The notes: generated by a model not told the origin, from the sequence alone. DNA of 64,000 bases from Desulfogranum japonicum DSM 18378 (GCF_000429945.1 NZ_KE386996.1:1-64000); one strand, 5' to 3'. Shown: positions 1,307 to 32,689, counted from the stretch's first letter. A program made the numbers and translations.

Positions 1307-3307
1307 TTATTCTTCAAACTGAGGATGAGAGAGGACCTTGTCCTCAATAGTTGATTTGTCTTCTTCTGTAGTGTTGGGACCGACAGGAGCACTACTTATT
1401 GTAAATTTTTTTAGCCATCTTCTGTCAAGCAGTTCAACACTCTCGTTTGTTTTAATGCCAATATACGCCTTGGTGGTATCTGGTTTCGGACCAGAACAGG
1501 GGCCGAGGGCCACATAAAATCCTGCGGCCAGAAGGGCTGCTCGTATTGCAGTAGAGTTGGAATAAGTAAAAAGCGCGGTGTGGTCTTTACCTGCACTGTT
1601 GCATTTGTCAGCGATTTCCCTGAATGCGTGATAGGTCCATAGGTGGGAATCACTTTTTTGAGAAAACATGTCATACCAGATGATATCAGGAGCCTGTGCA
1701 TTCTCTTTTGTCTTCTGAAAATCGCCTGGTACAAGATGCCAGCTGAACTTTTCATCCTTGCTGGTCCACTCTCCTCTGGCGAGAATGCTAGCCACTGCCT
1801 GGTGGCGTACGTGGGTAAAGAGGGCATAGTTCCGCTTGGCAAGCTTAAGCGAGTCAAGGTCCTTTTCAAAACTTAAAAGCTGAATTTCCGGCAGCGTTGA
1901 TCCCGCATTTTTCATCTCTTCGTAGGCCAGAATAAAGCGCATCGCGTTAAATCCAGCACCGAGTCCTACGTCCCAAATTGTTGTACGATCCTTTTCCAGA
2001 CGAGCGAGAGTTGGTGAGACGTATAGTGTGTCAGCTTCACTGTAGGGATCGTTAATCGAATGAAATTTTTCACCCGTCTGTTCATCAAGAATTGTATGCC
2101 ATCCGTTTGAAGATGTGACGACCCTGAACTTTCCCAGTTTTGAGTGGTCTTTTCTCTTTTTTTTCTTTGGTGCAGTTACCGGGTTATCCCGGTCCTGGAT
2201 GGTTAGCGTCTCTTTTGTTCTGCGGTAATACTCATAAAATGTCCCGTTCAGTATTTCCTGACGCATCTGATCCATGAGCCTTTTGTAAAAGGTCAGGTTA
2301 TGGAGGCCCACAAGCTGTGAGGCCAGATATTCGTCACATTTAACCAGATGGTGCAGATAGGCTCGGGAGTATTTTCTACATGTTTCGCATTCACACTCAT
2401 TATCCAGGGGCCGCTCAGAGAACTTGTGAACACTCCGCCGCAGGTCAATCCTGCCGTGGGATGTCCAGGCAACACCCTGTCTACCCATGGCTGTCGGCAG
2501 AATGCAATCAAACATATCAACTCCCCGGTGAACTGCTTCCAGTAGGTCGATGGGGGTCCCCACACCCATGAGATAGCGTGGCCGGTCAGAGGGTAGGAGG
2601 GATGCGGTTAATTCGGTCAAATCTTTCCGCTCATGGTCTTCTTCGCCGACTGCAAGGCCGCCGATTGCAAAGCCGTCAAAGGGAAGGGATGTGATCTGCC
2701 CAGCGCTCATTTTACGCAACTTTTCATATCTACCGCCCTGTACGATGCCGAAGAGGAACTGCGGCGATTCCTGCCGTGCGGCAAGTGAGCGCTCTGCCCA
2801 GCGGGAGGTGAGCTCTGTTGCGGCAAGGGTCTCTTCGTATGAAGAGGTGGCGTTGACACACTGATCGAGAACCATCATGATATCCGAGCCGATCGCCTTC
2901 TGCACTTCTATGCTTTTTTCAGGGGTAAGGTGTATGAAATTGTTATCAAGATAGCTTTTGAATGTTGCCCCTTCGTCCCGTATGGTAACATCCCGGCTAA
3001 GCGAAAAGACCTGAAAGCCACCTGAGTCTGTGAGCACTGATCCCGGCCACTGCATGAAGTTGTGTATGCCCTTAAAATGGTTAAACACCTCTATTCCCGG
3101 ACGGATGAGAAGGTGATATGTATTAGCAAGGAGCACAGGAAAACCTAAGGCTTCGGCGTCTTCAGTCCTCTGAGCGCGCAGAGCTGCACGTGTTGCAACA
3201 GGCATGAAAACCGGAGTTTTGACTGTGTTGTGGAGGGTTTCATAGGTACAGGCCCTGGCTGCACTGTCTTTGCACGTCCCGTCTATTTTAAAATGTAATC
3301 GCCCCAT
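1307..3307 (-). CDS. tgt: tRNA-guanine transglycosylase fused to an MnmC-like methyltransferase domain
   Basis: This is a 666-residue fusion. Residues 1-370 are a TGT barrel with DSGGFQ (Asp94), the nucleophile region DMFDCILP (264-271) and a zinc site Cys315, Cys317, Cys320, His346 with the usual 26-residue Cys-His spacing. TGT exchanges guanine 34 for preQ1. After a lysine-rich linker (381-390), residues 400-650 hold a Rossmann methyltransferase with WDVGLGAGFNAMRF, like the MnmC1/DUF752 domain that methylates aminomethyl-uridine 34. Oddly, the conserved RNA-contacting TRNARNG segment of standard bacterial TGT reads TAMGRQG here. Both activities would modify the wobble base. The gene stands alone. 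Confidence 0.88.
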   Translation of the reverse strand: MGRLHFKIDGTCKDSAARACTYETLHNTVKTPVFMPVATRAALRAQRTEDAEALGFPVLLANTYHLLIRPGIEVFNHFKGIHNFMQWPGSVLTDSGGFQVFSLSRDVTIRDEGATFKSYLDNNFIHLTPEKSIEVQKAIGSDIMMVLDQCVNATSSYEETLAATELTSRWAERSLAARQESPQFLFGIVQGGRYEKLRKMSAGQITSLPFDGFAIGGLAVGEEDHERKDLTELTASLLPSDRPRYLMGVGTPIDLLEAVHRGVDMFDCILPTAMGRQGVAWTSHGRIDLRRSVHKFSERPLDNECECETCRKYSRAYLHHLVKCDEYLASQLVGLHNLTFYKRLMDQMRQEILNGTFYEYYRRTKETLTIQDRDNPVTAPKKKKRKDHSKLGKFRVVTSSNGWHTILDEQTGEKFHSINDPYSEADTLYVSPTLARLEKDRTTIWDVGLGAGFNAMRFILAYEEMKNAGSTLPEIQLLSFEKDLDSLKLAKRNYALFTHVRHQAVASILARGEWTSKDEKFSWHLVPGDFQKTKENAQAPDIIWYDMFSQKSDSHLWTYHAFREIADKCNSAGKDHTALFTYSNSTAIRAALLAAGFYVALGPCSGPKPDTTKAYIGIKTNESVELLDRRWLKKFTISSAPVGPNTTEEDKSTIEDKVLSHPQFEE

Positions 3308-3987: not shown

Positions 3988-5472
3988 TCATGTGCCTTTC
4001 AGCAGGCTGTTTATTTCATTGCTTATCTTTTTACATCTTTCTTTAGGTGTTTCTTCACAAGAATTATTCTTGTGTTCAGCCTCCTCAATCAATGAACAGC
4101 CCAATTTTACCAGATAATCGTTGATTGCTGTACTCACTGCAGAGTCTTTCTTTTGCCAGTGGATAGGCGAGTCTGGCTTTCCCATGGAACGCAGTACCTG
4201 GTGACAGGCGTAGGTTAACAGGATGGCGACCCATTCAACTGCGGGATCTGAAAAATCAACTTTCGCTTCAAAGCCAAAGAGCCCCTGCTTGTGTAACATG
4301 TGTTTTTCGGCAAATCGGGTGTAGCCGGAGGTTCCGGCTAAAACGATCTGTGAATGGCTCAAAAGGTTGGCGGTTCTATCCAGCCGATTGAGCAGATGGT
4401 TGGCTTGCAGGAAATTGATGTTTTCTTTCAGTGAGTTAAGGTCTGCATCGGGGACGAACATCAAAAAACCTACTTCAGGGTCAATACCGTGGGATCTGCA
4501 GAGTTGTATGGCTTCTGCGGCCTTATCAGGGCCGGATCCCTTATCCATGCCCTTCAGGATATTTTTGGAACCGCTTTCAATGCCCATGAGCAGGCTGTTA
4601 AAACCCGCTTCCACCATATGGGTGAGCAATTCATCATCAAGGTCTTGTGGCCTGGTTTCCATGCCAAAGGTTATCTGGAGTGGTTTGAGCCGCTCCATGA
4701 GATCCAGTATCCTTTTCTTGCCATTTTTGCCTGGGCCGATGAAGTTTGGGTCGCAGAAGTAAAAGGAGGTAATTCCGTGGTCGATGAGTTCCTGCATTTC
4801 GGCGACGATGTTTTCAGGCGATCGGCCACGCCAGAGTGCGCCTTTGTTGTAGAATGATGGGACAGGGCAGAAACTGCAGTGATTATAGCAACCCCGGCTG
4901 GCAAGAATGCTGGCGGTACCGGTAAGTTCGCTCCGTTTGGGAAAGGGGAAAATGTCGGGATTCTTTTCTGGTTTGCGCCTGATATGATGGTTGAGGTTGG
5001 AACGCAGTACAAGGCCTTCAATGGCATCAAGGGCCAGGTTGTTGCAAAGAGACGTGGCCAGTTCAGGCAGGGTGAGCTCAAATTCTCCCACAGCAATGGA
5101 ATCAATGGATGGTGTTTGTTCCAGAATCTCCCTGTATATAAGAGTTGGAAAAAAACCAAAAAGGGTGAGATGACCGCAAAAACCACTTTGTTTCAGATCT
5201 GTGAAAAAATCAAACAGTGCATAACTCTGTTCCCAGAAATAAACAGCATTGACGCATAATACATCTGGATGCAGGTCGAGGATGTTTTCTTTTGTGGATG
5301 AAAATGTGGCCCCAGGTATTGCTTTGTCAAGAAAAGTTGTAGCAAAGCCGGCATGTTCCAGTGCAGCAGAAGCATAGCCACCCATGAGGCAGGACCAGAG
5401 AGGGGTGTTGGCGATATCGTTGAACCTCTCTTTTGAGGGGAGACGAGGGTGTTCAAGTACGACAACTTTCAT
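3988..5472 (-). CDS. B12-binding radical SAM protein, BzaE-like
   Basis: This 494-residue protein has an N-terminal B12-binding Rossmann region (LMGGYASAALEHAGF, then a VGEFELTLPEL segment) and a radical SAM core with the cluster motif RGCYNHCSFCPVPS (CxxxCxxC). It is the last gene of the riboswitch-led operon and overlaps its upstream neighbour by 4 bases (ATGA), so the two are translationally coupled. In the anaerobic bza pathway BzaD and BzaE are B12-binding radical SAM proteins that carry out the last methylations to 5,6-dimethylbenzimidazole. This gene takes the BzaE position by order. The B12/radical SAM class is clear from sequence; the BzaE role is inferred from context. Confidence 0.72.
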   Translation of the reverse strand: MKVVVLEHPRLPSKERFNDIANTPLWSCLMGGYASAALEHAGFATTFLDKAIPGATFSSTKENILDLHPDVLCVNAVYFWEQSYALFDFFTDLKQSGFCGHLTLFGFFPTLIYREILEQTPSIDSIAVGEFELTLPELATSLCNNLALDAIEGLVLRSNLNHHIRRKPEKNPDIFPFPKRSELTGTASILASRGCYNHCSFCPVPSFYNKGALWRGRSPENIVAEMQELIDHGITSFYFCDPNFIGPGKNGKKRILDLMERLKPLQITFGMETRPQDLDDELLTHMVEAGFNSLLMGIESGSKNILKGMDKGSGPDKAAEAIQLCRSHGIDPEVGFLMFVPDADLNSLKENINFLQANHLLNRLDRTANLLSHSQIVLAGTSGYTRFAEKHMLHKQGLFGFEAKVDFSDPAVEWVAILLTYACHQVLRSMGKPDSPIHWQKKDSAVSTAINDYLVKLGCSLIEEAEHKNNSCEETPKERCKKISNEINSLLKGT

Positions 5473-6812
5473 TGTTGCGGCTCCTTATTGTTCTTGTCCT
5501 GCAGGAGCCTGGAAAACACTCCGGCGCTATGGCATCTGGCTTCGAAGTTGTGCAGTACATGGTTGTATTTCTGCGGATTATAGTACACAGGATAGAGCAG
5601 GTCCGTATCGGCAGACAGTTCGCCGTTACGTATAAGCCTGTTGGTTAACGGTGCATCGGGGTAGAGCCGGATAGTGTTGAAAATGACAGCTCCAAGATTG
5701 CCTGACGGATCGTGAATATCAAGAAGCCTATCAAGTACCGTACTGGCTCGGGCAATGGTTTTGTCTGTTTCATCGGGCAGATTGACGAGAAAGTGGCACA
5801 TGGTGAGAATACCTTCGTCTGTTGTTAGCCTGGCAGCACGGAGAATGTCTTCTTCTGTCATTCGTTTGTTCAACAGATTGAGTCCGTAATCTGTCAGCGC
5901 ATCGGCTGAAAAATAGATAGCAATCAATCCTGCCCTTCTTGCCAGGGTAAGGTTTTCCGCAGTAAAATCGTTTTCACGAAAGAAGCCGGTCCAGCCGACG
6001 TTCAACTTACGATTGATGAGCTCTTTGCAGAGTTCCTCAAAATGGTCTCGTGGGCGGTTGACCACGGAATCCGTGAAGTGAAAAAGCTCAATGCCGAAGC
6101 GGGTTTTAAGCATTTCCATTTCATCTACGATGTTTTTCACCGGGCGAAGTCTCATGCAGGCTCCGCCCAGCTTAGGATAGAGACAGTACCCGCACCAGAG
6201 ATCGCAGCCTCTTTTCCCTTCAATGCCGATGGCGGCAACGTAGGAGTTATTGCCGGTATAGGCATCAGGTGGAAAGGCTTCTACATCCATTTCCGGAATG
6301 AGATCCAATGTAATCTTTGGACCGGGCGGATTTTGTCTCACACATTTTCCATCACGCCACAGCAATGATGGAATGTTTGCAGGGCCTATGGAATGTTTCA
6401 AGAGTTCGGGGAAGACAAGTTCACCCTCGCCAACCAGGCCAAAATCAAGTTCGGGAACCTCTTCCATGAGCCTTTTGGCAAGAAGAGAAAAGGCAGGTCC
6501 ACCAACAAGCAACCGTGCTTCGGGTACAAGCTGTTTGCAGAGCAGAGCGGCTGTTTTCAGGCTGGAAAGATAGGATGCATGATGCCCTGCGAGCGGGTCC
6601 AGGTTTCTGAAGGAGAGAAAGATGATATCTGCACCATGTTTTCTGATGGTGGTGTTCAGCGCATCCCATGGGTCATCGCAGAGGTTCATGTCGAGTACCT
6701 GTTTATCGACATCCGCCGGAACAAGCGATGAGAGTCGGGAAAGACCAAGGGGATAGACTCTTTCTTTTGCGCCAAGCTGTGAAGTGGGCAATTGGATCAT
6801 AAGCAGTTTCAT
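5469..6812 (-). CDS. B12-binding radical SAM protein, BzaD-like
   Basis: The 447-residue product opens with MKLLMIQLPTSQLG and a B12-binding domain (RVYPLGLSRLSSLV, then LVGGPAFSLLAKRL). The radical SAM motif is KRGCDLWCGYCLYP (CxxxCxxC). The ATG lies 3 bases after the stop of the methyltransferase gene, whose end (ATGGAGTAG) supplies GGAG as ribosome binding site. By position (after a BzaC-like O-methyltransferase, before a second B12 radical SAM gene, under a cobalamin riboswitch) it matches BzaD, a B12 radical SAM methylase of anaerobic lower-ligand synthesis. A C- or P-methylase of another pathway cannot be excluded. Confidence 0.72.
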   Translation of the reverse strand: MKLLMIQLPTSQLGAKERVYPLGLSRLSSLVPADVDKQVLDMNLCDDPWDALNTTIRKHGADIIFLSFRNLDPLAGHHASYLSSLKTAALLCKQLVPEARLLVGGPAFSLLAKRLMEEVPELDFGLVGEGELVFPELLKHSIGPANIPSLLWRDGKCVRQNPPGPKITLDLIPEMDVEAFPPDAYTGNNSYVAAIGIEGKRGCDLWCGYCLYPKLGGACMRLRPVKNIVDEMEMLKTRFGIELFHFTDSVVNRPRDHFEELCKELINRKLNVGWTGFFRENDFTAENLTLARRAGLIAIYFSADALTDYGLNLLNKRMTEEDILRAARLTTDEGILTMCHFLVNLPDETDKTIARASTVLDRLLDIHDPSGNLGAVIFNTIRLYPDAPLTNRLIRNGELSADTDLLYPVYYNPQKYNHVLHNFEARCHSAGVFSRLLQDKNNKEPQQ

Positions 6813-6815
6813 ATC

Positions 6816-8342
6816 CTACTCCATGAGAATGAGGCCGATGTATGTGACGTATTGTCCCTTTTTCTGCACCGGCTGAAGTGTAATGCCTGCGTTTTCCGCA
6901 GTTGCATAGACATCGATGCCCGAGCCCTCCATGGATGGTCGTGCAAGATGGGGGAGGCGGCACTGGTTGTCTTCGGGGCAGGAGGGGCAGAGATTGCAGG
7001 GGCCTGCACTGAATGAAAAGGCCTTGTGGTATCCCTGTAGAAAGGCATGCTTTTCCAGGGAAAGCAGAGTGTTATGGAAGCTCTTGCCGGGAGGAGTGCC
7101 ACGAACGAGATATGCCCGTGAGTAGCTGTCCAGCAATTCACGGGTCTTGTCATGTTCCATTCCATAAGGCGGACATTGCAGGCCTTTGTTAAATTCCTCG
7201 CAGCCGAATCTGCATTTTTGGCGTGGCCATGGGGCGGTAACGACCTCCGCGGGTGATATTGGCACAACGGAGAGAAGGTCCAGTTGAAGAGCGGCGGCTA
7301 TCAGCGGATCCTGCTGCATATTTAGACTGCCTGCCCGTTTTGCCATTATGATGCCGGTATCGGTCTGCAGGTCTTTCACTCCAACGTTGTCCAGTCCCTC
7401 TTCCTGAAGCCAGTGAAGGAGTGTTTCAGTATCATGACAGGTACCGTTAAAGGTGTTGAGCATCATGTTCACATCATAGAGTGCGCCTTTATGTGGAACT
7501 GAACCGGGGCGATCGGGAAAATAGTCATGGATAAGGAGCAGGCCTTCAGGCTGGAGAAGAGAAACTGCTTTGGCAAAAAGTGGTCTGGCATCTTCGGCAG
7601 AATAGGCATGCAGAAAATTGCTCATGCACACAAGATTGAATTGTCTGTCAAAGTCGTGTGATCTGAAGTCTCCGCTGATGGTTTCTATGTTTTCCCAACT
7701 GCAATCCTGGGGAAAAATCCTGTGCGCCGCCTCGATCACCTCGGGCAGATCACAGAGATATGCCCGCTCTATTGAGGTTGTAGCCAGAATTGCCCGGCAG
7801 ATGGTGCCGCTTCCTCCACCTATATCAAGCATCGATCCGGTGATTTTTTCATTGTCAATCAGCCTGGCAATCTGAGGGGCTTTCTGTCGAATAAGGGTGT
7901 CCATCGCTGCAACATACCGGAAGTTGCGCTCTTCATACGTCAACTCTTCTTCAACCTTCTTTGGCTGACTACTGATGGTTTCTCTTAAGTTCTGCCAGTT
8001 GGCCGCCATATACTGGCGATAAAGGAAAAAATCTCCCATGTAATCGGTTTTACCGGGAATGAGAAATTTTGAGGTTGCCTGAGAGGTATAAAGACACCCC
8101 TCATATGAACCAATAATATGTAGAGAAATCAAAACACGGAGCATGCGGGACAGCATTTCCGGCTCAGATGAAGTGGCCTGGGCCAGCTTCTCGACGGTAT
8201 CAGATCCATTTTCAATATGTTCAAATATTTTGAGCTCAAGAGCCGTAAAGAAAATCTGAGAATACCAGTAGGCAGTGGACAGATCTTCGAAAAATTGAAA
8301 ATCAATTTGTGCCGGGTCCGCAGGGTGAAGCAACTGTGTCAT
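6816..8342 (-). CDS. BzaC-like O-methyltransferase fused to a DUF2284 metal-binding domain
   Basis: The protein has 508 residues. Residues 1-340 form a class I SAM O-methyltransferase of the Methyltransf_2 type: an N-terminal helical dimerisation region (FFTALELKIFEHI), then LDIGGGSGTICRAIL for SAM binding and LLIHDYFPDRPGS. Residues about 345-508 are a cysteine-rich DUF2284-like domain (CRFGCEEFNKGLQCPPYG, then GPCNLCPSC and CRLPHLARPSMEGSGIDV), expected to bind metal or an Fe-S cluster. BzaC methylates the hydroxyl of 5-hydroxybenzimidazole and is normally about 340 residues, so the extra domain is notable. It is followed 3 bases later by the BzaD-like gene. An AAGG lies 10 bases before the ATG. 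Confidence 0.78.
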   Translation of the reverse strand: MTQLLHPADPAQIDFQFFEDLSTAYWYSQIFFTALELKIFEHIENGSDTVEKLAQATSSEPEMLSRMLRVLISLHIIGSYEGCLYTSQATSKFLIPGKTDYMGDFFLYRQYMAANWQNLRETISSQPKKVEEELTYEERNFRYVAAMDTLIRQKAPQIARLIDNEKITGSMLDIGGGSGTICRAILATTSIERAYLCDLPEVIEAAHRIFPQDCSWENIETISGDFRSHDFDRQFNLVCMSNFLHAYSAEDARPLFAKAVSLLQPEGLLLIHDYFPDRPGSVPHKGALYDVNMMLNTFNGTCHDTETLLHWLQEEGLDNVGVKDLQTDTGIIMAKRAGSLNMQQDPLIAAALQLDLLSVVPISPAEVVTAPWPRQKCRFGCEEFNKGLQCPPYGMEHDKTRELLDSYSRAYLVRGTPPGKSFHNTLLSLEKHAFLQGYHKAFSFSAGPCNLCPSCPEDNQCRLPHLARPSMEGSGIDVYATAENAGITLQPVQKKGQYVTYIGLILME

Positions 8343-8379
8343 ACAAGATACCTTGGCAGCATGGAATTTGGCTTTAGTG

Positions 8380-9948
8380 CTAATTCTGGGTGGTACTGGC
8401 TACCTGTGGCAGGTCGTCAGCAATATTGCACGTGGTTGCTGTACTCTTCTCCTTTGCGAAAAATGGTGTAAGTTTCTTCTCATCGCAGGGCTTGTCGGCA
8501 AGCGAAACAACGATAAAAACTGTCCCGGAAATAAGCATGCTGACAATTACTCCATGACTCATCAAAAGGGGATGAATGTTTTCGAGATATGGCGGTGCCA
8601 TGGGCGCAGTTTTAGAAAGATCAAAGAGAATGAGGCCTGTCTGGACAATGAAACCTGTCCACAACGAGGCAACGGCTCCCCTGCCTGTTGCTCGCTTCCA
8701 GTACAGGCCACCCATCAGGGCGAAAAAGTATGAAGCCGAGGCGATAAAGGTGGCTATGTGGATGGCATCGATGATGGAATGGATGAAAAACGAACCGGCA
8801 GTGGCGCAAATGACGATCAGCAAAACGCTGATTCTGTTTATTGTTCGCATCTGTTGCATAGTTGCGTCCTTATGCAAGTAACGCTGATATATGTCTCTGG
8901 CCAGGCAGGAGGCGCCGGATGCGGCGAAGGTATCGGCACAGGACATTGCTGCCGCAGCGAGTGCTATGGCGCATAGGGCAAGAGTAAGCGGAGGGAGATG
9001 GCTGTCCATGATAAAGGTGAGCAGGGCAGGTTCTGCCTGGGCCATCCCCATGGGGAATCCAGTCTGGGCTATGTCAGGATATATGACGTTAAGCGCCACA
9101 GCAATGATGGCACAGCAGGCAAACACGATGCTAATCAGAAGTGAACCAAGTAACATGCCGTTTCGTGCGGATTTCTCATTTTTTGCAGCCCAGACGCGTT
9201 GCCACGGGTCCTGCTCTGTAATCCAGCCTGGAACAATGGCCAACGTAAAAATGATGACCATGGGTAGACCGACGGAAAGTGGATTCCACCAGTCATTGCT
9301 GGTGTTGCTCAGCAGCTGTCCCACTGAAAAATCAGTAGCCTGCGAAGCACCGGTAAGAGTCGAGATTGCCATAATCAGAGTAAAAACGAAAAGGCAGAGA
9401 AACTGTACGGTATCGGTGGCTATTACGGCAGAGAGTCCTCCAAGGGTAACATAGACGGCAACGGCTCCACCCACTATCAGGGCTGAGTATACCGGATCAA
9501 GGCCATAGAAGATTTCGAGTACAAAGGAGAGTCCCTTGATATCGGCAACGGCAAACAGAATCATAACAACCGTAATAATAATGGCAACGGGCAGACGCAG
9601 ATGGTTCCCGTATCGCATTTCCAGCAACTCAGGCTGGGTTATGGATGGCAGCGATTTAATTTTCTTGACAAAAAAGGCAATGACAAGAAGGGCAATGATA
9701 TTGGGTGCCACAAAACTCCAGATAGAGCCCAGACCCAGTAACATATAGAGACCGATGACCGCCAGCATGCCGCCTGCGGTGAGCCATGAAGCCGCAGCCG
9801 AAAATCCTATGGAAAGTGTACCTGCCGATTTTCCAGCTAGCCAGAACTGGCTTGGAGAGTGGTCTTTTTTGTTGAAATGAATGCCAACAGCTACCAGAAA
9901 AATGAGGTAGATACCGAGGATAACGAGAAAAAGGTGAAAACCGTTCAT
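8380..9948 (-). CDS. Sodium:solute symporter (SSS family), first gene of the cobalamin-riboswitch operon
   Basis: A 522-residue polytopic membrane protein with about 13 hydrophobic helices. It shows SSS-family features: FWLAGKSAG near the N-terminus, ADIKGLSFVLEIFYGL, TLGGLSAVIATDTVQF, and AAMSCADTFAASGASCLARDIY. The ATG at 9948 has GGGAGG six bases upstream. The longer reading from 10038 would run into the riboswitch and is rejected. It precedes the methyltransferase gene by 37 bases and should share its transcript. The substrate is unknown. Given the operon, a benzimidazole base, its precursor or a corrinoid fragment is plausible, but this is inference. Confidence 0.85.
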   Translation of the reverse strand: MNGFHLFLVILGIYLIFLVAVGIHFNKKDHSPSQFWLAGKSAGTLSIGFSAAASWLTAGGMLAVIGLYMLLGLGSIWSFVAPNIIALLVIAFFVKKIKSLPSITQPELLEMRYGNHLRLPVAIIITVVMILFAVADIKGLSFVLEIFYGLDPVYSALIVGGAVAVYVTLGGLSAVIATDTVQFLCLFVFTLIMAISTLTGASQATDFSVGQLLSNTSNDWWNPLSVGLPMVIIFTLAIVPGWITEQDPWQRVWAAKNEKSARNGMLLGSLLISIVFACCAIIAVALNVIYPDIAQTGFPMGMAQAEPALLTFIMDSHLPPLTLALCAIALAAAAMSCADTFAASGASCLARDIYQRYLHKDATMQQMRTINRISVLLIVICATAGSFFIHSIIDAIHIATFIASASYFFALMGGLYWKRATGRGAVASLWTGFIVQTGLILFDLSKTAPMAPPYLENIHPLLMSHGVIVSMLISGTVFIVVSLADKPCDEKKLTPFFAKEKSTATTCNIADDLPQVASTTQN

Positions 9949-10044
9949 ATGTAACCTCCCGTTGGGCCGGCACCGCTTCACGAGCCGACATTGCATCAGC
10001 CCGGGATTTACCGTCTCTCCGAGAAGTTGTATTCGCACTTTTCC

Positions 10045-10220
10045 GTAAGATATTCTGGCTCGTGGATCATACTACTCACCGCACCTTCCCGCATTGAATC
10101 GTTTTGTTTTCAGCGCAGTGGCTTCTTGCGGCTTTCGTCCCCACATACAGCGGCGGGTCCGCCCCGGAGTCTAACCGGGTTCCCTTACAGGAAAGAAAAA
10201 TCTGATATTTCTACAGGTTG
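10045..10220 (-). promoter_or_regulatory. Cobalamin riboswitch upstream of the symporter/bza-like operon
   Basis: Read on the minus strand this shows the ordered cobalamin riboswitch landmarks: GGGAACCCGG, a GACCCGCCGCTGTA segment, GGACGAAAGCC, the B12 box GCCACTG (10116-10122), GGGAAGGTGCGG and GAGCCAGAATATC. Such leaders bind adenosyl- or methylcobalamin and shut expression off when B12 is plentiful. The symporter start lies about 97 bases downstream. Confidence 0.93.
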
Positions 10221-10258
10221 TTGTATTTGTGCCTGAACCTGTCATTCCGTAGGTAGAG

Positions 10259-10287
10259 TATATACCACAACAGATAAACCTTTTCAA
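10259..10287 (-). promoter_or_regulatory. Sigma-70-type promoter for the riboswitch RNA
   Basis: On the minus strand, TTGAAA (10287-10282) is followed after exactly 17 bases by TATATA (10264-10259). Transcription would start about 10250, some 30 bases before the riboswitch. The position and spacing fit a housekeeping promoter for the symporter-methyltransferase-radical SAM operon. Confidence 0.6.
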
Positions 10288-10446
10288 TATCAGCCAATAC
10301 AATCGATATGCACACGCCTTGGGACGCAAAAAGCATCCGTTATATGAAATTGAAAATCAAGGCGTTATGTCCACCCGTTTCTGCAGCTGGACCTGTTTTG
10401 TTTGGTATGTATGTTGCAAGTTTAAGTAACAAATCAAATTAACCAA

Positions 10447-24633: not shown

Positions 24634-25917
24634 TCAATGGTTGTTTTGATGGATGAGAGAGTCCTCAAATCTGTGGGCCGGGCTGTTCAGCCGTGTAAGG
24701 GCTCCATCGCGATACTTATCCAGAGTATCTGCAACTGTAGATCCGGCATGGGCGGTATACACTTCAATCATGTGAGAGTGAATGAAGTGGAATGAAATTT
24801 CGCCAATACTTGCTGTCAACACCAGGTCCGCTCCAGATTCGGCAGCCAGTCGCGAGGTCTTGAGTCCTATGTGCTCTCTGGAGTGGAGATGATTATTCTT
24901 ATGACAATCTACCACTTCGCTCTTGCTGTATTCCAGGGAGACCAACAGATGATAGGGCGCTCTGGCAAAATGTTGATGGACAGTGGAGTTCAGCCCTGAA
25001 CACTGCGCAACAGGGATCATGGCCAGCAACTTGTCCTTTTTTTTCGGCTCCACGTGGATAAGAGTGGATTCTATATGTTCAAAGTTCCCGGCAATGATTT
25101 CTTCGACCCTGTCGGCAACATTGTGGGCCTCACTAAGGGTGGCTTCTGGCTCAGCTGTAATGATGCACTCTACCATTTTAAATGGTCCTGATTGACGGAT
25201 TTTCACTTCATCAACAGAAACCACGCCACTTACCTGGCAAATAGTTTGAGTAATTTCATTACATAAGCCAGGTTCCATATTTGCGTCCATCAAGATAAGC
25301 AGGGCTATCCAAACGTTTTCCAAGCCAATTTTGAGCAGGAGAACTGCAATAAAGAGGATGATCCCACCTTCAACGTAGGGAATCTGGAAATACGCCAGAA
25401 TAATACCTGCCAATACAGCCAGTGATGTGAAAATATCCAGGTATGCTTCTTTGGCACTGGCAATCAGCGATTTGGAGCCAATGGCATGGCCTACTTTGGA
25501 TTCCATGGTTGCTACAACCAGTGCAGCGACTGAAGAAATGGCACTGGCAGCGATGGGAAAAAAAGGAAATGCACGGGTCTGTTGTGCGAGATGCAGTTTG
25601 TTCAGGCCGTCTTTGAACAGGTCAATGCTGGCAACGGTGATGAGTAACCCCACTATCAGGCAGGCAAAGGTTTCTGCTCGATAGAGTCCATAAGGAAATC
25701 TGTCTGTTTTACCCTGCGATGCTATCCACAGACCGAACCCGGAAGCAGCATGGGTCATCAGGTCTGCACAACTGTGAATGGCATCTGCGATGAGTATCTG
25801 TGAGTTAAACAGAAAGCCAACCGTGCCTTTGAGTACAGCTAAAGCTAAAGACACCAGAACGGAAAGAAACGCTACTTTTTGGCCTTTTTGCAGTTTTTTT
25901 GTTTTCTGGTCGTTCAT
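24634..25917 (-). CDS. CDF-family metal transporter with C-terminal NifX-like domain
   Basis: About 427 residues. Residues 20-200 are a six-helix cation diffusion facilitator domain (LIADAIHSCADLMTH in helix 2, FPYGLYRAETFACL), followed by the CDF cytoplasmic ferredoxin-like domain (VSVDEVKIRQSGPFKMVECI). The last 120 residues resemble the dinitrogenase iron-molybdenum cofactor (NifX/NifB) domain (IPVAQCSGLNSTVHQHFARA, then ADLVLTASIGEI). In helix 5 the usual H/D-x3-D reads E-x3-D (EAYLD), so metal preference may differ from zinc. It follows the ABC ATPase gene by about 50 bases and probably belongs to the cobalamin-riboswitch operon. Confidence 0.85.
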   Translation of the reverse strand: MNDQKTKKLQKGQKVAFLSVLVSLALAVLKGTVGFLFNSQILIADAIHSCADLMTHAASGFGLWIASQGKTDRFPYGLYRAETFACLIVGLLITVASIDLFKDGLNKLHLAQQTRAFPFFPIAASAISSVAALVVATMESKVGHAIGSKSLIASAKEAYLDIFTSLAVLAGIILAYFQIPYVEGGIILFIAVLLLKIGLENVWIALLILMDANMEPGLCNEITQTICQVSGVVSVDEVKIRQSGPFKMVECIITAEPEATLSEAHNVADRVEEIIAGNFEHIESTLIHVEPKKKDKLLAMIPVAQCSGLNSTVHQHFARAPYHLLVSLEYSKSEVVDCHKNNHLHSREHIGLKTSRLAAESGADLVLTASIGEISFHFIHSHMIEVYTAHAGSTVADTLDKYRDGALTRLNSPAHRFEDSLIHQNNH

Positions 25918-25971
25918 CCCAATATCAGCCAATGCCTGTTCGGTAAAGAGTATACTTGTTATTTAAAAGAG

Positions 25972-26796
25972 CTATAAGGATCCAGGTACAGGATATTTAC
26001 CATGTTTTGCGGTTAACCCTGCAGCCTGTGCCAGCCCACAGCTTGCACGGATCATACGCTGAGTGGCAGGGTGCTGTGCTTCCTCAACAATGTTACCACT
26101 TGTGAGCGTTTCCACAATGGCTCCGTCATCCATGACGTGGATGGTATCGCAGAGTTTTTCCGCAAGGGCTAAATCATGGGTAATGAACAGAGAGGCAAAT
26201 TTCTGTTGTTTCTGTAATTTTTGAAAGAGAGCTATGATTTGAGCCTGAATAGTAACATCCAGAGCTGAAGTGGCTTCATCGCAAATGACCAGTTGCGGGT
26301 TTAATCCTGTCACCCTGGAAAAAACGATGCGTTGCAGCTGTCCACCGGAAAGCTGGTTGGGGTAACGGCCTAAGTATTGAACGGAAAGGTTGACACGTTC
26401 CAGGAGTTTTGCAGCCAGATCGCTGTGACCGCATCCATTGAGCAGCTTAAAATTACGATAGGGTTCCAGGAGAAATTGTTTTACTGTCATTCGTTGGGGA
26501 AAACACGCCAGAGGATCCTGGAAAACCATCTGTACCTGCCGATAATAGTCTTGGCGGTTGATGCGGAAGATATTTCTTCCCCGGAACAGTATGGTGCCTT
26601 TTTCCTGACAATGGATACGACAGAGTATCCTGGCCAGGGTGGATTTACCGGATCCGCTGGAGCCCACCATTCCAACACATTCGCCAGGATGAATATCTAA
26701 AGTGACATCTTTGAGAATGTGTACGGATTTACCCAATTTATTAAAAAATTTGTTCACTCGCTGTACACTTACCAAAGGTTCTGATGTGTTACTCAT
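25972..26796 (-). CDS. ABC transporter ATP-binding protein (NikE/DppF-like)
   Basis: A 274-residue ATPase of the nickel/peptide importer class. Walker A GSSGSGKST, Q-loop MVFQDPLACFPQRMT, signature LSGGQLQR, Walker B LVICDEATSALD and H-loop ITHD are all visible. The ATG at 26796 overlaps the end of the upstream ATPase gene by 8 bases (ATGAGTAA). It is the partner of the preceding ATPase. Confidence 0.9.
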   Translation of the reverse strand: MSNTSEPLVSVQRVNKFFNKLGKSVHILKDVTLDIHPGECVGMVGSSGSGKSTLARILCRIHCQEKGTILFRGRNIFRINRQDYYRQVQMVFQDPLACFPQRMTVKQFLLEPYRNFKLLNGCGHSDLAAKLLERVNLSVQYLGRYPNQLSGGQLQRIVFSRVTGLNPQLVICDEATSALDVTIQAQIIALFQKLQKQQKFASLFITHDLALAEKLCDTIHVMDDGAIVETLTSGNIVEEAQHPATQRMIRASCGLAQAAGLTAKHGKYPVPGSL

Positions 26797-27583
26797 GATG
26801 CAATGCCCGTAGGTGAGGGATGGCAGCCAGTAATTGGCCGGCATAGGTTTCAGGTGGTCTGGAAAGAATATTTTGGGTTATATCGAAGTCCTTTGCCTTA
26901 CCGTTCTGCATTACCATGATTTTGTCAGCGATACGGGCACATGCACATATATTATGGCTAACCATGATAATGGCGGTTCCCTGTTCTCTGCGGCGCCTAT
27001 TGAACTCCTCCATGATGATTTCCTGGGTCGTGACATCCAAGGCTGATGTAGGTTCGTCGGCCAGGATCAGGTCCGGATCCATGGCCAATGAAATAGCGAT
27101 GGCCACCCGTTGTTTCATCCCGCCGCTGAGCTGCCATGGTCTTGCAGCAAGAATAGCCGGAGGATCCTGGAGATCCATTTTTTCAAGTTCATGCGCAGCA
27201 AGCTCACGGGCCTCATATCTGCTCATGGAGCGGTGGTTACGTATGGCCTCGACAAACTGTCTTTCCACAGACACCATGGGATTAAGAGATGCGCCAGGAT
27301 TCTGGAAGATCATGGCTATTCGTCCTCCACGGAGTTTTCGCCAGGCGCTTTCGGTATAGTTTGTTGTCTCCACTCCATCAAAAATATATGTGCCTGCAGT
27401 AATTTTTGCTCCAGAGGGAGGCAGGTTGATTAGAGCTCTGATGAGGGTAGTTTTGCCTGATCCGCTCTCCCCGACAATGCCAAGGGTTTGGCCATGCATG
27501 AGGGTGAAGCTCATATCCTCGAGGGCAACAATGCCCCCGGGATATTCTATTTTCAGCGATTGGATTGCAACGAGATTATTCAT
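26789..27583 (-). CDS. ABC transporter ATP-binding protein (NikD/DppD-like)
   Basis: A 264-residue ATPase with Walker A GESGSGKTT, Q-loop MIFQNPGASLNP, signature LSGGMKQR and Walker B LILADEPTSALD. The ATG at 27583 (MNNLVAIQSL) overlaps the end of the binding-protein gene by 8 bases (ATGAATAA), so a longer reading from 27664 is rejected. It pairs with the downstream ATPase to drive the two permeases. Confidence 0.9.
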   Translation of the reverse strand: MNNLVAIQSLKIEYPGGIVALEDMSFTLMHGQTLGIVGESGSGKTTLIRALINLPPSGAKITAGTYIFDGVETTNYTESAWRKLRGGRIAMIFQNPGASLNPMVSVERQFVEAIRNHRSMSRYEARELAAHELEKMDLQDPPAILAARPWQLSGGMKQRVAIAISLAMDPDLILADEPTSALDVTTQEIIMEEFNRRRREQGTAIIMVSHNICACARIADKIMVMQNGKAKDFDITQNILSRPPETYAGQLLAAIPHLRALHHE

Positions 27584-29108
27584 TGGCAAATTTAAGCCTG
27601 TCATCAATATAGTAGATTTCTGACACAAACCTGTGGATACCGGATATACGCTTGTTGTATACAACGTTACCTTTCTGGTAGAAGAGAAAAATAGCTGCTA
27701 CGTCATCCATGAGAATCTGTGCCCCTTTGGTTCCCAGATTGTAGCGTTTGTCTCTGTCCAGGGTACGGTCAAGCTCACCGAGCAGGTTGTCGAAATCCGG
27801 GTTGCTGTATTGACCATAATTTCCTCTTGAACCTGTTTTAAAACCTGATTCGAGAAAATATTGCGGATCTAAGGTGGGAGCTGAGGTCCAACGTTCGAAA
27901 AGGAAGTCGTATTTGCCTTGTTTGGCGGCCTCGGCAAAGTTTTCCATCTGTTTAACCTCCATGCCTATGCCTACTTTTTTCAGTTCAGACTGCATGGCTA
28001 TTCCTATATTTTTTGCTGCCGCTCCATGGTTGTTCATGCAGATATACTGAAGAACGATATCTGTGCCTCTAAACTCGCGGATACCGTTACCGTCACTGTC
28101 AGTAATTCCTGCCCTGTCTAAGAGTTGTATGGCTTTATCTCTGTTATACGGGTAGGCATCGTCTCCTGAATAACCAAAGGGGAGCAATGCATTAAATGGC
28201 CCGCGGGCGGGGATACCACCTGCGATTTTTTCAGCATAGACATTCTTGTGAATGGCACTGTGAACAGCTTGCCTGAATTCAGGTATTTGCATCCAGGGAT
28301 GGGTAAAATTGGTACGAAGGAGAAATACTCTCAGGTTAGGGCCACTGAGTACATCCAGTTTGTTGTCTTTTTCCAGGATTGGCAGGTCTGCGGCACTGAG
28401 CTGGGTTGCCACATCAAGCTCTCCGGATTGCAGGGCCATGGACCTGGTGTTGGCATCGGATATGTATTTCACGTTCACGGTTTCTACATCCGGTTCTCCT
28501 TTCCAATACGCTGTGTTCTGTGAGAGAACCATACCTGCTTCCGGTGAGAAGCTGTCCACTTTGAATGGCCCGGTTGTGACAGGTTTGAATTGAAATCCAT
28601 CAGGATCTTGAGCCGCTGCTTCAGCATCGACGATAATGAAAACCGGATCAGCCAGCACATTGAGTAACGTGGCATAGGGGCGGGTTGTTTTTATGGTCAG
28701 CGTGTTGCCCTGGGAAGTGATGGAGTCCAGTGGAAATTGTACATCCTTACGGTCCGTTATTTTCAGGGCACGCTCCAGGGATGCTTTGCAGGCTTCTGCA
28801 TCAACCTTTGCACCATTTTGGAAAGTAATACCCTCACGTATGGTAAAGATGGTGGTCAGTGCATCGGGTTGTTCCCAACGTTCGGCAATGACGGGTTTGT
28901 ATTGCAGATTTTCATCAATCTGCAGCAGGTTTTCACCAATGCCGCAACGAGTGAGGGTCCAGCCATGCCAGGCAGAGGTGGGATCTATGTCACCGTCCAG
29001 CCAGAAAATAGCCATGTTTACGGTTTTGTCTTTGGACGCAGCTGCCGGTGCTGTCGTACATGCCAGAAATATAGCAATGGCGATCAGTATGGGGATCCAT
29101 GGTTTCAT
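27576..29108 (-). CDS. ABC transporter substrate-binding protein, family 5 (NikA-like)
   Basis: A 510-residue periplasmic protein with an N-terminal signal sequence (IPILIAIAIFLACTTAPAAA). SBP family 5 features are SAWHGWTLTRCGIGENLLQI, ERWEQPDALTTIFTIREGITF and the C-terminal FERWTSAPTLDPQYFLESGF. The lipobox is poor (FLAC), so it may be soluble or lipid-anchored. The family binds nickel, peptides or other small ligands. Under a cobalamin riboswitch, cobalt chelates or corrinoids are reasonable guesses. An AAAGGAG site precedes the ATG. Confidence 0.88.
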   Translation of the reverse strand: MKPWIPILIAIAIFLACTTAPAAASKDKTVNMAIFWLDGDIDPTSAWHGWTLTRCGIGENLLQIDENLQYKPVIAERWEQPDALTTIFTIREGITFQNGAKVDAEACKASLERALKITDRKDVQFPLDSITSQGNTLTIKTTRPYATLLNVLADPVFIIVDAEAAAQDPDGFQFKPVTTGPFKVDSFSPEAGMVLSQNTAYWKGEPDVETVNVKYISDANTRSMALQSGELDVATQLSAADLPILEKDNKLDVLSGPNLRVFLLRTNFTHPWMQIPEFRQAVHSAIHKNVYAEKIAGGIPARGPFNALLPFGYSGDDAYPYNRDKAIQLLDRAGITDSDGNGIREFRGTDIVLQYICMNNHGAAAKNIGIAMQSELKKVGIGMEVKQMENFAEAAKQGKYDFLFERWTSAPTLDPQYFLESGFKTGSRGNYGQYSNPDFDNLLGELDRTLDRDKRYNLGTKGAQILMDDVAAIFLFYQKGNVVYNKRISGIHRFVSEIYYIDDRLKFANE

Positions 29109-29252
29109 TTCATCTCCTTTGAATAGGTAGAGGTTGAGTCTGTACGGGGTACTTTTTTAAGCACCAGCAGAACAGCGAACCTGAGCAGAGGTCGTCCACA
29201 GAGCTGATGTGCATCATGCAGTGCGCTGTTTGCGTGTTATTTTCCGCGACCC

Positions 29253-30074
29253 TTAGGATATTTCCGGATTCAAATATTTGCGGGTGGCATCACCCAGAAT
29301 GTTAAAAACAACCACCACCATAAAAGTAGCCAGGCCAGGGTAAATCACCAGCCAGGGGGCACTTTGCAGATATTCCCTGCCTTCACTGAGCATGCTGCCC
29401 CATTCGGGTGTGGGCGGCTGTACGCCAAGGCCAAGAAAGGAAAGGCCTGCCAGGGCTAACATCATATTACCTATATCCAGACTGAGTTGGGTAAGGAGTG
29501 GGGGCAGGATGGTGGGCAGAAGATAATGTCGGACCAGTTTGACCGTACCTGCACCGGCCATTTGTCCGGCAATAACAGCTTCACTGTGTATTGCGGTTCG
29601 CACCAGAACCCGTGTCAGCCGGGCGAATTTTGTCCACCAGATGATTGCAAGTGCGCAAATAGTATTGGTAATTCCAGGTCCCAATAAGCCCACCACGGCG
29701 ATGGCAAAGATGAGATCCGGAAAAGCCAGAATGGTATCCGCAATACGCATGATAACAGTGTCGGTAATTCCTCCGCGCATACCTGCCGCTGTACCGATAA
29801 AGATTCCCAGAACAAAAATCATACTCAGCATACCAAAGGTCATCCCAAGGGAGATTCTTGCCCCACAGAGCAGGCGGGAAAGAATGCAGCGGCCCACCTG
29901 ATCAGTACCAAGTAAATACTCTGGATTGGGTGGGGTTAAAATCTGAACGAAATCAGTTTCCAGTGGATCATGGGGAGCAAGCAATGGACCAAGCAATGCG
30001 AGAGTGACCATGATTGCTGCCAGACTCAGGGCTATGATAAATTGATGCTGTTTGTTCAACTGAAAGAGGTTCAT
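29253..30074 (-). CDS. ABC transporter permease (NikC/DppC-like)
   Basis: A 273-residue inner-membrane permease. It has an N-terminal cytoplasmic segment, PLLAPHDPLETDF, YLLGTDQVGRCILSRLLCGA, and the EAA loop (RTAIHSEAVIAGQMAGAGTV). It overlaps the upstream permease by one base. A 144-base gap separates it from the binding-protein gene; that gap begins TAAGGGTCGCGGAAAATAA at the stop codon, resembling a family B repeat end. Confidence 0.9.
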   Translation of the reverse strand: MNLFQLNKQHQFIIALSLAAIMVTLALLGPLLAPHDPLETDFVQILTPPNPEYLLGTDQVGRCILSRLLCGARISLGMTFGMLSMIFVLGIFIGTAAGMRGGITDTVIMRIADTILAFPDLIFAIAVVGLLGPGITNTICALAIIWWTKFARLTRVLVRTAIHSEAVIAGQMAGAGTVKLVRHYLLPTILPPLLTQLSLDIGNMMLALAGLSFLGLGVQPPTPEWGSMLSEGREYLQSAPWLVIYPGLATFMVVVVFNILGDATRKYLNPEIS

Positions 30075-31012
30075 TATTGTCCTCCGCTCAGTCGTAGTCG
30101 GGGGTCAAGCAACTCTGCTATTACATCAGCAATGAAGTTTATACTTACATAGATGCAGACCATAATAAGCACATATGCCTGGATGACCGGATAGTCCCGA
30201 TGGGTTATGGATTCAATGGCCATACTGCCTAATCCTGGCCAGGAAAAAATGGTTTCAACAATGACTGTCCCACCAAGCAATAATGCACAGGAAAGCCCGA
30301 ATAGTGTTGCCAGGCCAGCCAGAACGCCGGGTAAAACATGGAAGAGGACAATGGTCCATTCCCGGCATCCCCTTGCCCTTGCACCGACTACATATTCCCT
30401 GGTCATCTCTTCGCTTATTACTGCTTGAATCTGTCTTGTGTAACGTCCTATCAGAGGAATGGCCAAGGTAAGTGCAGGGAGAACAACACTTTCCGGAGCA
30501 TATGGGTCTGTGAGTTTGAACCAGTGAAAAGTGACAATAAAGGAAAGTATCAGCATGAGTCCCAACCAGAAATCAGGCACTGAAATAGCCGCAAATGAAA
30601 AGAACCGGATGATGTAATCAGTGAATCTACCTGCTTTAAGTGTGGCTAAAATTCCTAGAAAAAAAGAAAATACAAACATTACACCGATTGCAACCAGAGA
30701 AAGTTTGAAGGTCATTGCAAAACGTCGTTGGATCATATCCGCAACCGGTTCACCGGTACGTAGGGAAATTCCCGCATCAAGTGTGGTCATATCCGCTAAC
30801 CAATGCAGGTACTGAAGAATAAACGGCTGATCCAGGCCCATTTTTTTGCGCATTTCTTCCAGAATCTCATTGCTTGGAGAAATACCTCTACATTCAAAAT
30901 AGATTTCAGCGGGATCACCAGGGCTCAGCCAGGTCAGGAAAAAAGTTAAGAAACTGGCTGCAAGCATTACCAGCAACATTTCAACAATTTTGCGTAGAAT
31001 AGATCTCAGCAT
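30074..31012 (-). CDS. ABC transporter permease (NikB/DppB-like)
   Basis: A 312-residue permease with the family pattern FFLTWLSPGDPAEIY near the N-terminus, FILQYLHWL, and the EAA loop SEEMTREYVVGARARGCREW. It starts 7 bases before the end of the MATE gene, showing tight operon structure. It forms the membrane channel with the NikC-like permease. Confidence 0.9.
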   Translation of the reverse strand: MLRSILRKIVEMLLVMLAASFLTFFLTWLSPGDPAEIYFECRGISPSNEILEEMRKKMGLDQPFILQYLHWLADMTTLDAGISLRTGEPVADMIQRRFAMTFKLSLVAIGVMFVFSFFLGILATLKAGRFTDYIIRFFSFAAISVPDFWLGLMLILSFIVTFHWFKLTDPYAPESVVLPALTLAIPLIGRYTRQIQAVISEEMTREYVVGARARGCREWTIVLFHVLPGVLAGLATLFGLSCALLLGGTVIVETIFSWPGLGSMAIESITHRDYPVIQAYVLIMVCIYVSINFIADVIAELLDPRLRLSGGQ

Positions 31013-32343
31013 GACGATGGCTGTACTGCTTTAAAAGCGTGTCGGGTTAATTGATGCCAGGAAAAGTAGAGTACTGCACTGCGAACTGCACAGAAGACGA
31101 TAAAAGCTGTCCACAGTCCGTGATTTCCCCATTTGGGAATGAGTAGATTCTCCATGAGCAGAAAAAATAAAAGAGACAGTATCAGAGAGTTACGTATTGG
31201 TGCGGAACAAGTGGCACCTATATAGAATCCTGCGTAAACAAGGCCAAGTGGCATGGTGAGCAGGAAAAGCAGTATATAAAAAAGATATTGCTCACAGAGG
31301 GTAACCACGGGTTCTATGTTAGTGAAAATCCTAATGAGGGGAAGGTCGAGCAATAGCAGGCCTGCTACCAGGATGAATACAAGGCCGATCAGATTAAGGT
31401 GGGCAATGGAGCGGGTTTGAGCAAAAGCGGTCAAATCACCGGAACCGACAAATTTGCCAGCAAAAACAGAGGCTGCATTTGCGAGTCCATCAAAAAAATA
31501 AGCTATCAGATACTGAAGCTGAAAGAGAATAGCATTGGCAGCAAGAATATCTGTACCCATGGAACTTCCTCTGGCCACAAAGATATTCGTCATGGTTAGC
31601 AGGCAAACGGTTCGGATCAGCAGGTCACTGTTTACAGATGCCAATTTTTTCATGGCGCTGGCTTCCAGTAGCCCCTTGCTATATTTTTTGATTGTGTTCA
31701 GGGGAAGTTGAGGGCTGATAAGCAGTATGCCGAGAAACAAACCACTTGCCTGTGAAATAAGTGTGGCGGTCGCTACACCTGCAACTCCCATGTGGAAATA
31801 GAGAACAAACAGGGTATCTAATAAGATATTGAGCATATTGGTGCCGATCTGCAGAAGCATAACCTGACGTACATGTCCCCTGCCCATGAGCCAGCCAAGG
31901 TTAACATAGCTTATCAGCACCATGGGGGCTCCCCATATGAGAATACGGAAATAACGGACCGCATGGACTGTTACGTCTGGTTCGGCATCATAAATGAGGA
32001 GAGCACCTTGCAGGATTGGCTTCTGGCAACATATGAAAAGCAGGCCAATGCCAGCAGCAATTATCAAAGGCCGTAACCATGCGTGGACCCCGGGCTCAAG
32101 CTTTTTTTGACCCAGGCTCTGTGCTGCGAATCCAGATGTAGCAACACGTAAAAAACCAAACAGCCAGTAGAGAGTATTGAAAATGACCGTGCCTATGGCG
32201 ACACCGCCAATGAAGGAAGGATTATCCAGGCGACCGACCACCGCTGTATCCACAGCCCCGAGCAGTGGCTGGGTTACTGTTGATAGTGTGAACGGAAGGG
32301 CAAGGCGTATATATGCCTTATGGGAGATGGAATGAATGTGCAT
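31006..32343 (-). CDS. MATE family efflux transporter, first gene of the second cobalamin-riboswitch operon
   Basis: About 445 residues and 12 predicted helices with MATE features: LALPFTLSTVTQPLLGAVDT, VVGRLDN, FLRVATSGFAAQ, and the second-half ANAILFQLQYLIAYFFDGLA. It couples export to a Na+ or H+ gradient; the substrate is unknown. I start at the ATG at 32343, although a GTG five codons upstream is possible. It is the first gene after a cobalamin riboswitch and overlaps the NikB-like gene. Confidence 0.87.
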   Translation of the reverse strand: MHIHSISHKAYIRLALPFTLSTVTQPLLGAVDTAVVGRLDNPSFIGGVAIGTVIFNTLYWLFGFLRVATSGFAAQSLGQKKLEPGVHAWLRPLIIAAGIGLLFICCQKPILQGALLIYDAEPDVTVHAVRYFRILIWGAPMVLISYVNLGWLMGRGHVRQVMLLQIGTNMLNILLDTLFVLYFHMGVAGVATATLISQASGLFLGILLISPQLPLNTIKKYSKGLLEASAMKKLASVNSDLLIRTVCLLTMTNIFVARGSSMGTDILAANAILFQLQYLIAYFFDGLANAASVFAGKFVGSGDLTAFAQTRSIAHLNLIGLVFILVAGLLLLDLPLIRIFTNIEPVVTLCEQYLFYILLFLLTMPLGLVYAGFYIGATCSAPIRNSLILSLLFFLLMENLLIPKWGNHGLWTAFIVFCAVRSAVLYFSWHQLTRHAFKAVQPSSC

Positions 32344-32480
32344 GCTCAGCCTGTCCACGGCGTCCGATACAGGCGAGATGTAAATACACCCAGTACCGAA
32401 GAAATGTACAGGGAAACCGCATTTATTCCCAGGGGATTATCTGTAAAAACACTTTTACCATTGCGTTTTTACATGAGAAA

Positions 32481-32668
32481 TTACAGGCAGGTCTTCTGGC
32501 TTCCCTCCATCTTCAAAAGGCCTTCCCGTCTGGATATAGCAAACAGTGACCATACATGTTTTCGAAGATGTTACCTGCTTCGTTGGCAGGCGTGAGAGTT
32601 ACAGCGGCGGGTCCGCTCCCGATTTTAACGGGATTCCCTATTAAGTTCCTATGAACACCAGTATTTCA
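32481..32668 (-). promoter_or_regulatory. Cobalamin riboswitch upstream of the MATE/ABC/CDF operon
   Basis: The minus strand shows GGGAATCCCG, a GACCCGCCGCTGTAA segment, a variant B12 box (GGTCACTGT, near 32542-32550), GACGGGAAGGCC and the 3' element GAAGCCAGAAGACCTGCC. Order and spacing fit a cobalamin riboswitch. It ends about 140 bases before the MATE ATG. Confidence 0.93.
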
Positions 32669-32689
32669 AATGAATGTTCTGTATCTTGT

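Follow-up and report, generated by a model that had tools for sequence, protein, structure and literature searches.

In the canonical bza operons for the anaerobic synthesis of cobamide lower ligands, bzaC, bzaD and bzaE follow each other under a cobalamin riboswitch. A published survey of about 11,000 genomes recovered bza genes from only 96 of them (PMC6461909). In Geobacter and Geotalea, which are producers of factor III, bzaF is encoded together with cobT (PMC8123684, PMC13119186). A described symporter for comparison is ThiV of SAR11, a member of the SSF family that is controlled by a TPP riboswitch and probably takes up HMP, a thiamine base arising from the product of ThiC (PMC11452348). 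CbiR is a phosphodiesterase involved in cobamide remodelling (PMC7733943). The designation bzaABCDE has also been applied to benzoate degradation (PMC9960961), which has nothing to do with the lower-ligand genes.

We analysed an operon of this kind from Desulfogranum japonicum DSM 18378. It is located in a stretch of 64,000 nucleotides (NZ_KE386996.1:1-64000), the whole of which is referred to as the window. An earlier note on this DNA had described a cobalamin-riboswitch operon which resembles bzaC-bzaD-bzaE and carries a symporter but no ring-forming genes. The operon consists of the following features:

10028-10232, minus strand: cobalamin riboswitch (RF00174), matched by cmscan over the full model (positions 1-189) with 74.3 bits and E 1.8e-16
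8380-9948, minus strand: SSF (solute:sodium symporter) gene, 522 aa (Pfam SSF, 2.2e-33)
6816-8342, minus strand: bzaC, O-methyltransferase fused to DUF2284, 508 aa (Pfam, architecture, tblastn)
5469-6812, minus strand: bzaD, B12-binding radical SAM methyltransferase, 447 aa (TIGR04385, tree)
3988-5472, minus strand: bzaE, cobalamin-type radical SAM enzyme, 494 aa (identity to BzaE of canonical operons, predicted fold)

The riboswitch match is not due to chance, as shown by its E value and by its score when compared to the gathering score of 31.5 bits, and the full-length riboswitch of the earlier note is confirmed. Pfam and profile searches also recovered the same gene set of a symporter, an O-methyltransferase and two radical SAM enzymes. 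The genes are indeed tightly spaced, with gaps of 79 nt between riboswitch and SSF gene, 37 nt between the SSF gene and bzaC and 3 nt between bzaC and bzaD, while bzaD and bzaE overlap by 4 nt. The SSF gene starts with ATG and has GGGAGG 5' of the start. The proposed promoter stood only in part: TTGAAA-17-TATATA upstream of the riboswitch (about 10260-10290) looks plausible on visual inspection, but a consensus promoter scan did not return it, and promoter-like sites were no more numerous than in shuffles. There is no ThiC-family gene within the 64-kb window, and the operon is thus correctly described as being without ring-forming genes.

Two other observations concern the surroundings of the operon. 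The cassette adjoins a gene for a tRNA-guanine transglycosylase fused to a Methyltransf_30 domain (1307-3307), which is the second Tgt of the genome (the other one is on contig C53) and has no true orthologue in the congeners. A second cobalamin riboswitch of the window (32469-32677, minus strand) heads a gene set spanning 24634-32677, with a MATE transporter, a Dpp/Nik-type ABC transporter and a CDF cation-efflux protein with a dinitrogenase-cofactor domain, which perhaps functions in cobalt or corrinoid transport.

For the comparisons which follow, canonical BzaC, BzaD and BzaE were set by operon order and curated models, and the term BzaF-type was assigned by position in the tree. The BzaC protein consists of Dimerisation and Methyltransf_2 domains followed by a C-terminal DUF2284 (Pfam). 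This two-domain architecture and the position before bzaD are the same as in canonical operons, and tblastn matches to canonical BzaC extend over the full length with 33-38% identity (eight loci from the Bacillota phylum). The DUF2284 fusion was considered as a novelty, and this was ruled out because canonical BzaC proteins from Bacillota are also fused, the only one without DUF2284 being that of locus L108. In another locus (L082:2668-7036) a free-standing DUF2284 protein is encoded just upstream of the cassette, beside genes which by eye resemble a corrinoid methyltransferase system. This hints at a role related to corrinoids for the domain, which BzaC carries as a fusion.

BzaD from the window matches the BzaD model TIGR04385 over residues 2-426 of 447 with 410 bits (E 1.5e-122). 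This is below the curated cut-off of 450 bits, which is a naming threshold rather than biology, and the same is true for the whole Desulfobacterota clade, so that the cut-off is passed by none of 395 Desulfobacterota genomes. Identity to BzaD from canonical-order loci is 38-42% and that of BzaE is 36-42% (eight loci each). In the trees, the BzaD clade from the window is sister to canonical BzaD, with other radical SAM families outside (support 99), and the BzaE clade is sister to canonical BzaE. The tree check that the earlier note had proposed thus places both radical SAM proteins beside their canonical counterparts and, for BzaD, apart from other radical SAM families. BzaE has the CxxxCxxC motif and its gene follows bzaD. 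Its B12-binding domain was not matched by Pfam, but the structure model (pLDDT 86.7) has OxsB and TsrM as best fold matches, followed by AprD4, MgmA, CysS and TokK, and so the predicted structure shows the fold of a cobalamin-dependent radical SAM enzyme. That both radical SAM genes are B12-binding, as had been claimed, is therefore true for bzaD, whereas for bzaE it comes from structure prediction only. On these sequence comparisons, the three enzymes are Desulfobacterota-type orthologues of BzaC, BzaD and BzaE in canonical order, and the resemblance noted earlier is borne out by gene order, riboswitch, the trees for BzaD and BzaE and the architecture of BzaC.

To describe the distribution of such loci, an alignment of four relatives was scanned against 84,980 named prokaryote genomes, which resulted in 42 loci. 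Wherever the contig allows, bzaC, bzaD and bzaE occur together and in the same order in all 42 of these. All but one (41) are Desulfobacterota-like, the exception being a Bacillota genome with the order ThiC-like, ThiC-like, cobT, bzaC, bzaD, bzaE. An apparent fusion of the three genes in locus L094 was rejected, as the three occupy separate reading frames within a GC-rich stretch. In the Bacillota phylum, BzaD scores over the curated cut-off in 20 of 398 genomes, and eight of their loci were read, three of which (L170, L171, L174) have the full canonical order. The second ThiC-like protein exceeds the BzaB cut-off in L174 and L108. The BzaF-type gene is part of the same operon in 12 of the 42 loci.

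The genome of D. japonicum (5.8 Mb in 124 contigs) has two genes of the ThiC family. One of them, on contig C2, is the true ThiC and is located in a thiamine operon. The other one, on contig C18, stands between a cobalamin riboswitch (C18:16926-17134) on its upstream side and cobT on its downstream side, directly adjacent to both. In the tree, it is separate from ThiC and from BzaA/BzaB, and because it shares a clade (support 100) with genes which immediately precede bzaC-bzaD-bzaE in other genomes, we refer to it as BzaF-type. Search for ring genes and cobT, as had been proposed, was thus successful, and of the two options in the earlier note it is the dependence on a distant bzaF that applies. 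The window operon does carry the late half only, the ring gene being on another contig. The genome also codes for proteins of anaerobic corrin synthesis (CbiA, CbiC, CbiD, CbiE/T, CbiL and a CbiK-like protein). The split layout, with bzaF-cobT apart from the symporter and bzaCDE, is also found in Desulfobacteraceae, including the isolate Desulfospira joergensenii.

Cobalamin riboswitches usually repress B12 synthesis, B12 uptake or B12-independent isozymes. Other riboswitch loci of the same genome include the class III ribonucleotide reductase NrdD with an activase-like gene (L019:10834-13238, contig C14), which is the classic arrangement for a B12-independent isozyme. Two tandem cobalamin riboswitches (C26:33997-34903, corresponding to L020:5998-6904) are directly upstream of genes for the subunits of the B12-dependent methylmalonyl-CoA mutase, which represents an unusual logic in view of the usual targets.

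We consider, with a probability of about 0.85, that the window operon supplies the methylation steps of an anaerobic lower-ligand pathway which is complete but divided over two operons. The pathway, leading to 5,6-dimethylbenzimidazole and cobalamin, appears complete because bzaF-cobT behind a riboswitch and the corrin genes are present in the genome. With both operons directly behind a cobalamin riboswitch, scarcity of cobalamin would lead to expression of both. According to the known bza pathway, BzaF would then convert aminoimidazole ribotide to 5-hydroxybenzimidazole, which would be activated by CobT and O-methylated by BzaC. BzaD would add a methyl group and BzaE would swap the methoxy group for a methyl group, which would result in 5,6-dimethylbenzimidazole and hence in cobalamin. 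The pathway could also end before dimethylbenzimidazole is reached, or lead to another methylated benzimidazole.

The new element is the symporter, a candidate transporter for lower-ligand bases. Its SSF domain scores with 116 bits against a Pfam cut-off of 22.8, and its sequence is related to vSGLT and SiaT (SSF / SSS family). In the alignment to vSGLT, as read by eye, small residues are kept at most sodium-site positions (A53, A333, S336), with C337 at another. Orthologues are 59-70% identical. Those with at least 57% identity were found only in genomes with bzaCDE, where they occur in 10 of 28, and none was found in 246 other genomes of the phylum that were sampled. If the window is counted, the symporter is part of the bzaCDE operon in 10 of 11 genomes, in nine cases before bzaC and in one case after bzaE (L094), while in the eleventh genome it is a fragment on another contig. 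A cobalamin riboswitch is upstream in all seven symporter-first loci that were tested.

There is about an even chance that bzaC, bzaD and bzaE function as described but that the symporter carries some other compound that the cell needs to make cobamides or for methylation, for instance an amino acid, a precursor of the linker or another nutrient, or that it is a passenger. SSF substrates are very diverse (PMC7918813), no family model assigns a substrate to this protein, several genomes have bzaCDE without the symporter, and the structure model, which was built with only eight similar sequences, has a pLDDT of 36. This is countered by the restriction of close orthologues to genomes with bzaCDE, by the occurrence at two different positions within the operon, and by the presence of the symporter together with bzaCDE after the probable transfer discussed below. 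Our best guess, held tentatively, is that the symporter may import a benzimidazole base which feeds the same enzymes. The guess is made by analogy, because ThiV is a riboswitch-controlled SSF protein and the likely importer of a ThiC-derived base. The cargo would correspondingly be the BzaF product or a methylated form of it. No transporter for benzimidazole lower-ligand bases is named in the literature that was searched.

A smaller chance is given to a cassette that ends at another methylated benzimidazole, such as 5-methoxy-6-methyl- or 5-methylbenzimidazole, due to differences in BzaD and BzaE from Desulfobacterota. The low identity of these proteins to the canonical ones (about 36-42%) and the score of BzaD below the curated cut-off are consistent with this, as are 5-methylbenzimidazolyl cobamides that were reported for some sulfate reducers in early chemistry. 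A genome with bzaE but without bzaD would predict 5-methylbenzimidazole as product. Against this, the three genes are together wherever BzaD and BzaE were both seen, and no genome with bzaE only was shown among 340 genomes of the order. One candidate (G590) was rejected since bzaD and bzaE are present there on different contig stretches.

It is very improbable that the cell cannot form the ring, takes up 5-hydroxybenzimidazole by the symporter and only methylates it. Such a salvage version would fit to an operon without a ring gene and to the finding that the symporter and an in-operon bzaF never occur together among the 42 loci, but this exclusion is confounded with phylogeny and may reflect ancestry rather than function because the symporter loci largely form one clade. 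It would also fit to the metagenome-assembled genome (MAG) UBA5852, where only about 82 codons of bzaF remain between a cobalamin riboswitch and cobT, both of which are intact (L167:5550-7252), while bzaCDE and the symporter are retained at another place in the genome (L094), and to the symporter-bearing MAGs G575 and G577, in which BzaF was not found. These exceptions are all MAGs, and G575 is probably incomplete because ThiC is also absent. An intact bzaF with cobT is present in six of the nine symporter-bearing relatives that could be searched, one of them being the isolate D. joergensenii. For the D. japonicum genome, this reading is rejected, as the BzaF-type gene and cobT are present on contig C18, and the idea that salvage replaces ring formation is not supported.

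The salvage and remodelling idea nevertheless has a real counterpart in relatives. UBA5852 is possibly a salvage-only derivative, if the truncated bzaF is not a misassembly. In a Syntrophobacteraceae-like clade, the operon has the order riboswitch-bzaF-bzaC-bzaD-bzaE-cbiR-cobT, with cobS next after cobT in L097 (checked) and L101 (by eye). CbiR is part of the bza operon in L097, L098 and L100-L104, and in six of these seven genomes (L097, L098, L100, L102, L103, L104) BzaE and CbiR form one polypeptide of 773-817 aa, an example from this ORF to cobT being L097:10337-12769. In L101, the two genes are separate. A version linked to remodelling thus exists in this sister clade. BzaE and CbiR are not mentioned together in the literature that was searched. 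In the D. japonicum genome no truncated bzaF was found, and neither CbiR nor the fusion was present in the window and the other riboswitch loci that were read.

That the radical SAM genes belong to some other B12 methylase family unrelated to lower-ligand synthesis can be dismissed almost entirely, because generic families such as BchE occur only among weak matches of BzaE, whereas the BzaD model matches over the full length at 1e-122, the trees agree, and relatives show linkage to bzaF, cobT, cobS and cbiR, with the fusion of BzaE to CbiR in six genomes.

Within the split pathway that we favour, the symporter might be a dedicated importer of lower-ligand bases, so that these sulfate reducers both make 5-hydroxybenzimidazole and methylate benzimidazoles taken from their neighbours, with the base of cobalamin as product, which we regard as possible but somewhat doubtful. 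If this is true, UBA5852 would be a natural salvage-only descendant, and the BzaE-CbiR fusion would represent a related coupling, in which base synthesis is joined to the removal of the old base.

The two halves of the pathway seem to differ in their history. Half of the genomes from the D. japonicum family (37 of 74), one congener among them, have a BzaF-type gene, and cobT is beside it in 7 of 12 loci that were inspected. BzaF from D. japonicum groups with its own family, and grouping with the Desulfobacteraceae set is rejected with a p-AU of 0.04, which is only just below 0.05. No BzaD orthologue was found in four congeners or in the other sampled genomes of the family, and a distant copy (49-51%) occurs in two genomes of another family of the same order. 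BzaD and BzaE from the window nest in Desulfobacteraceae (support 97 and 100), and their grouping with the own order is rejected with a p-AU of 0.035, again only just below 0.05. From these trees, BzaF-CobT looks native to the family, and the cassette of symporter and bzaCDE was probably acquired horizontally from Desulfobacteraceae. By themselves, the resident bzaF and cobT would lead to 5-hydroxybenzimidazolyl cobamide, which is the situation in Geobacter (PMC8123684), and the acquired methylation cassette would upgrade such a producer. A further apparent horizontal transfer is found in L211 (G1193, order Desulfobacterales), which has a bzaC-bzaD-bzaE set of Bacillota type with 57-60% identity to Bacillota.

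The bzaC-bzaD-bzaE cassette appears to be mobile between lineages and to turn a 5-hydroxybenzimidazole producer into a predicted producer of cobalamin. As 41 Desulfobacterota-like loci were found while none of 395 genomes of the phylum passes the curated BzaD cut-off, existing counts of anaerobes that make cobalamin are probably too low. For microbial communities, this bears on the question of which anaerobes provide true cobalamin and which lower-ligand bases are exchanged, and the cassette brings a candidate base transporter.

In summary, the system is a Desulfobacterota-type bza pathway, which is split, probably assembled by horizontal transfer, and equipped with a dedicated symporter as candidate importer of benzimidazole bases. 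CbiR-dependent remodelling has its equivalent in the seven relatives with CbiR in the bza operon and, in contrast to these, not in the loci of D. japonicum that were read. The contig C18 operon and those of family relatives pair a BzaF-type ThiC paralogue with cobT as in Geobacter and Geotalea, but D. japonicum has the methylating cassette on top, whereas bzaC-bzaD-bzaE are not reported from there. With canonical bza operons the system shares BzaC (with DUF2284), BzaD and BzaE in the same order, the cobalamin riboswitch and dimethylbenzimidazole as predicted product, but it differs in the ring step, predicted for one BzaF-type enzyme that is encoded with cobT in another operon, in an additional symporter, and in proteins which are about 33-42% identical to those from the canonical-order operons recovered. 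Like ThiV, the symporter is an SSF protein controlled by a riboswitch for that vitamin of which it would take up a heterocyclic precursor, and HMP-P and 5-hydroxybenzimidazole both originate from ThiC-type enzymes. The vitamin is a different one and the likeness to ThiV is drawn by analogy. While SAR11 cannot make HMP, the D. japonicum genome has the capacity to make the base itself.
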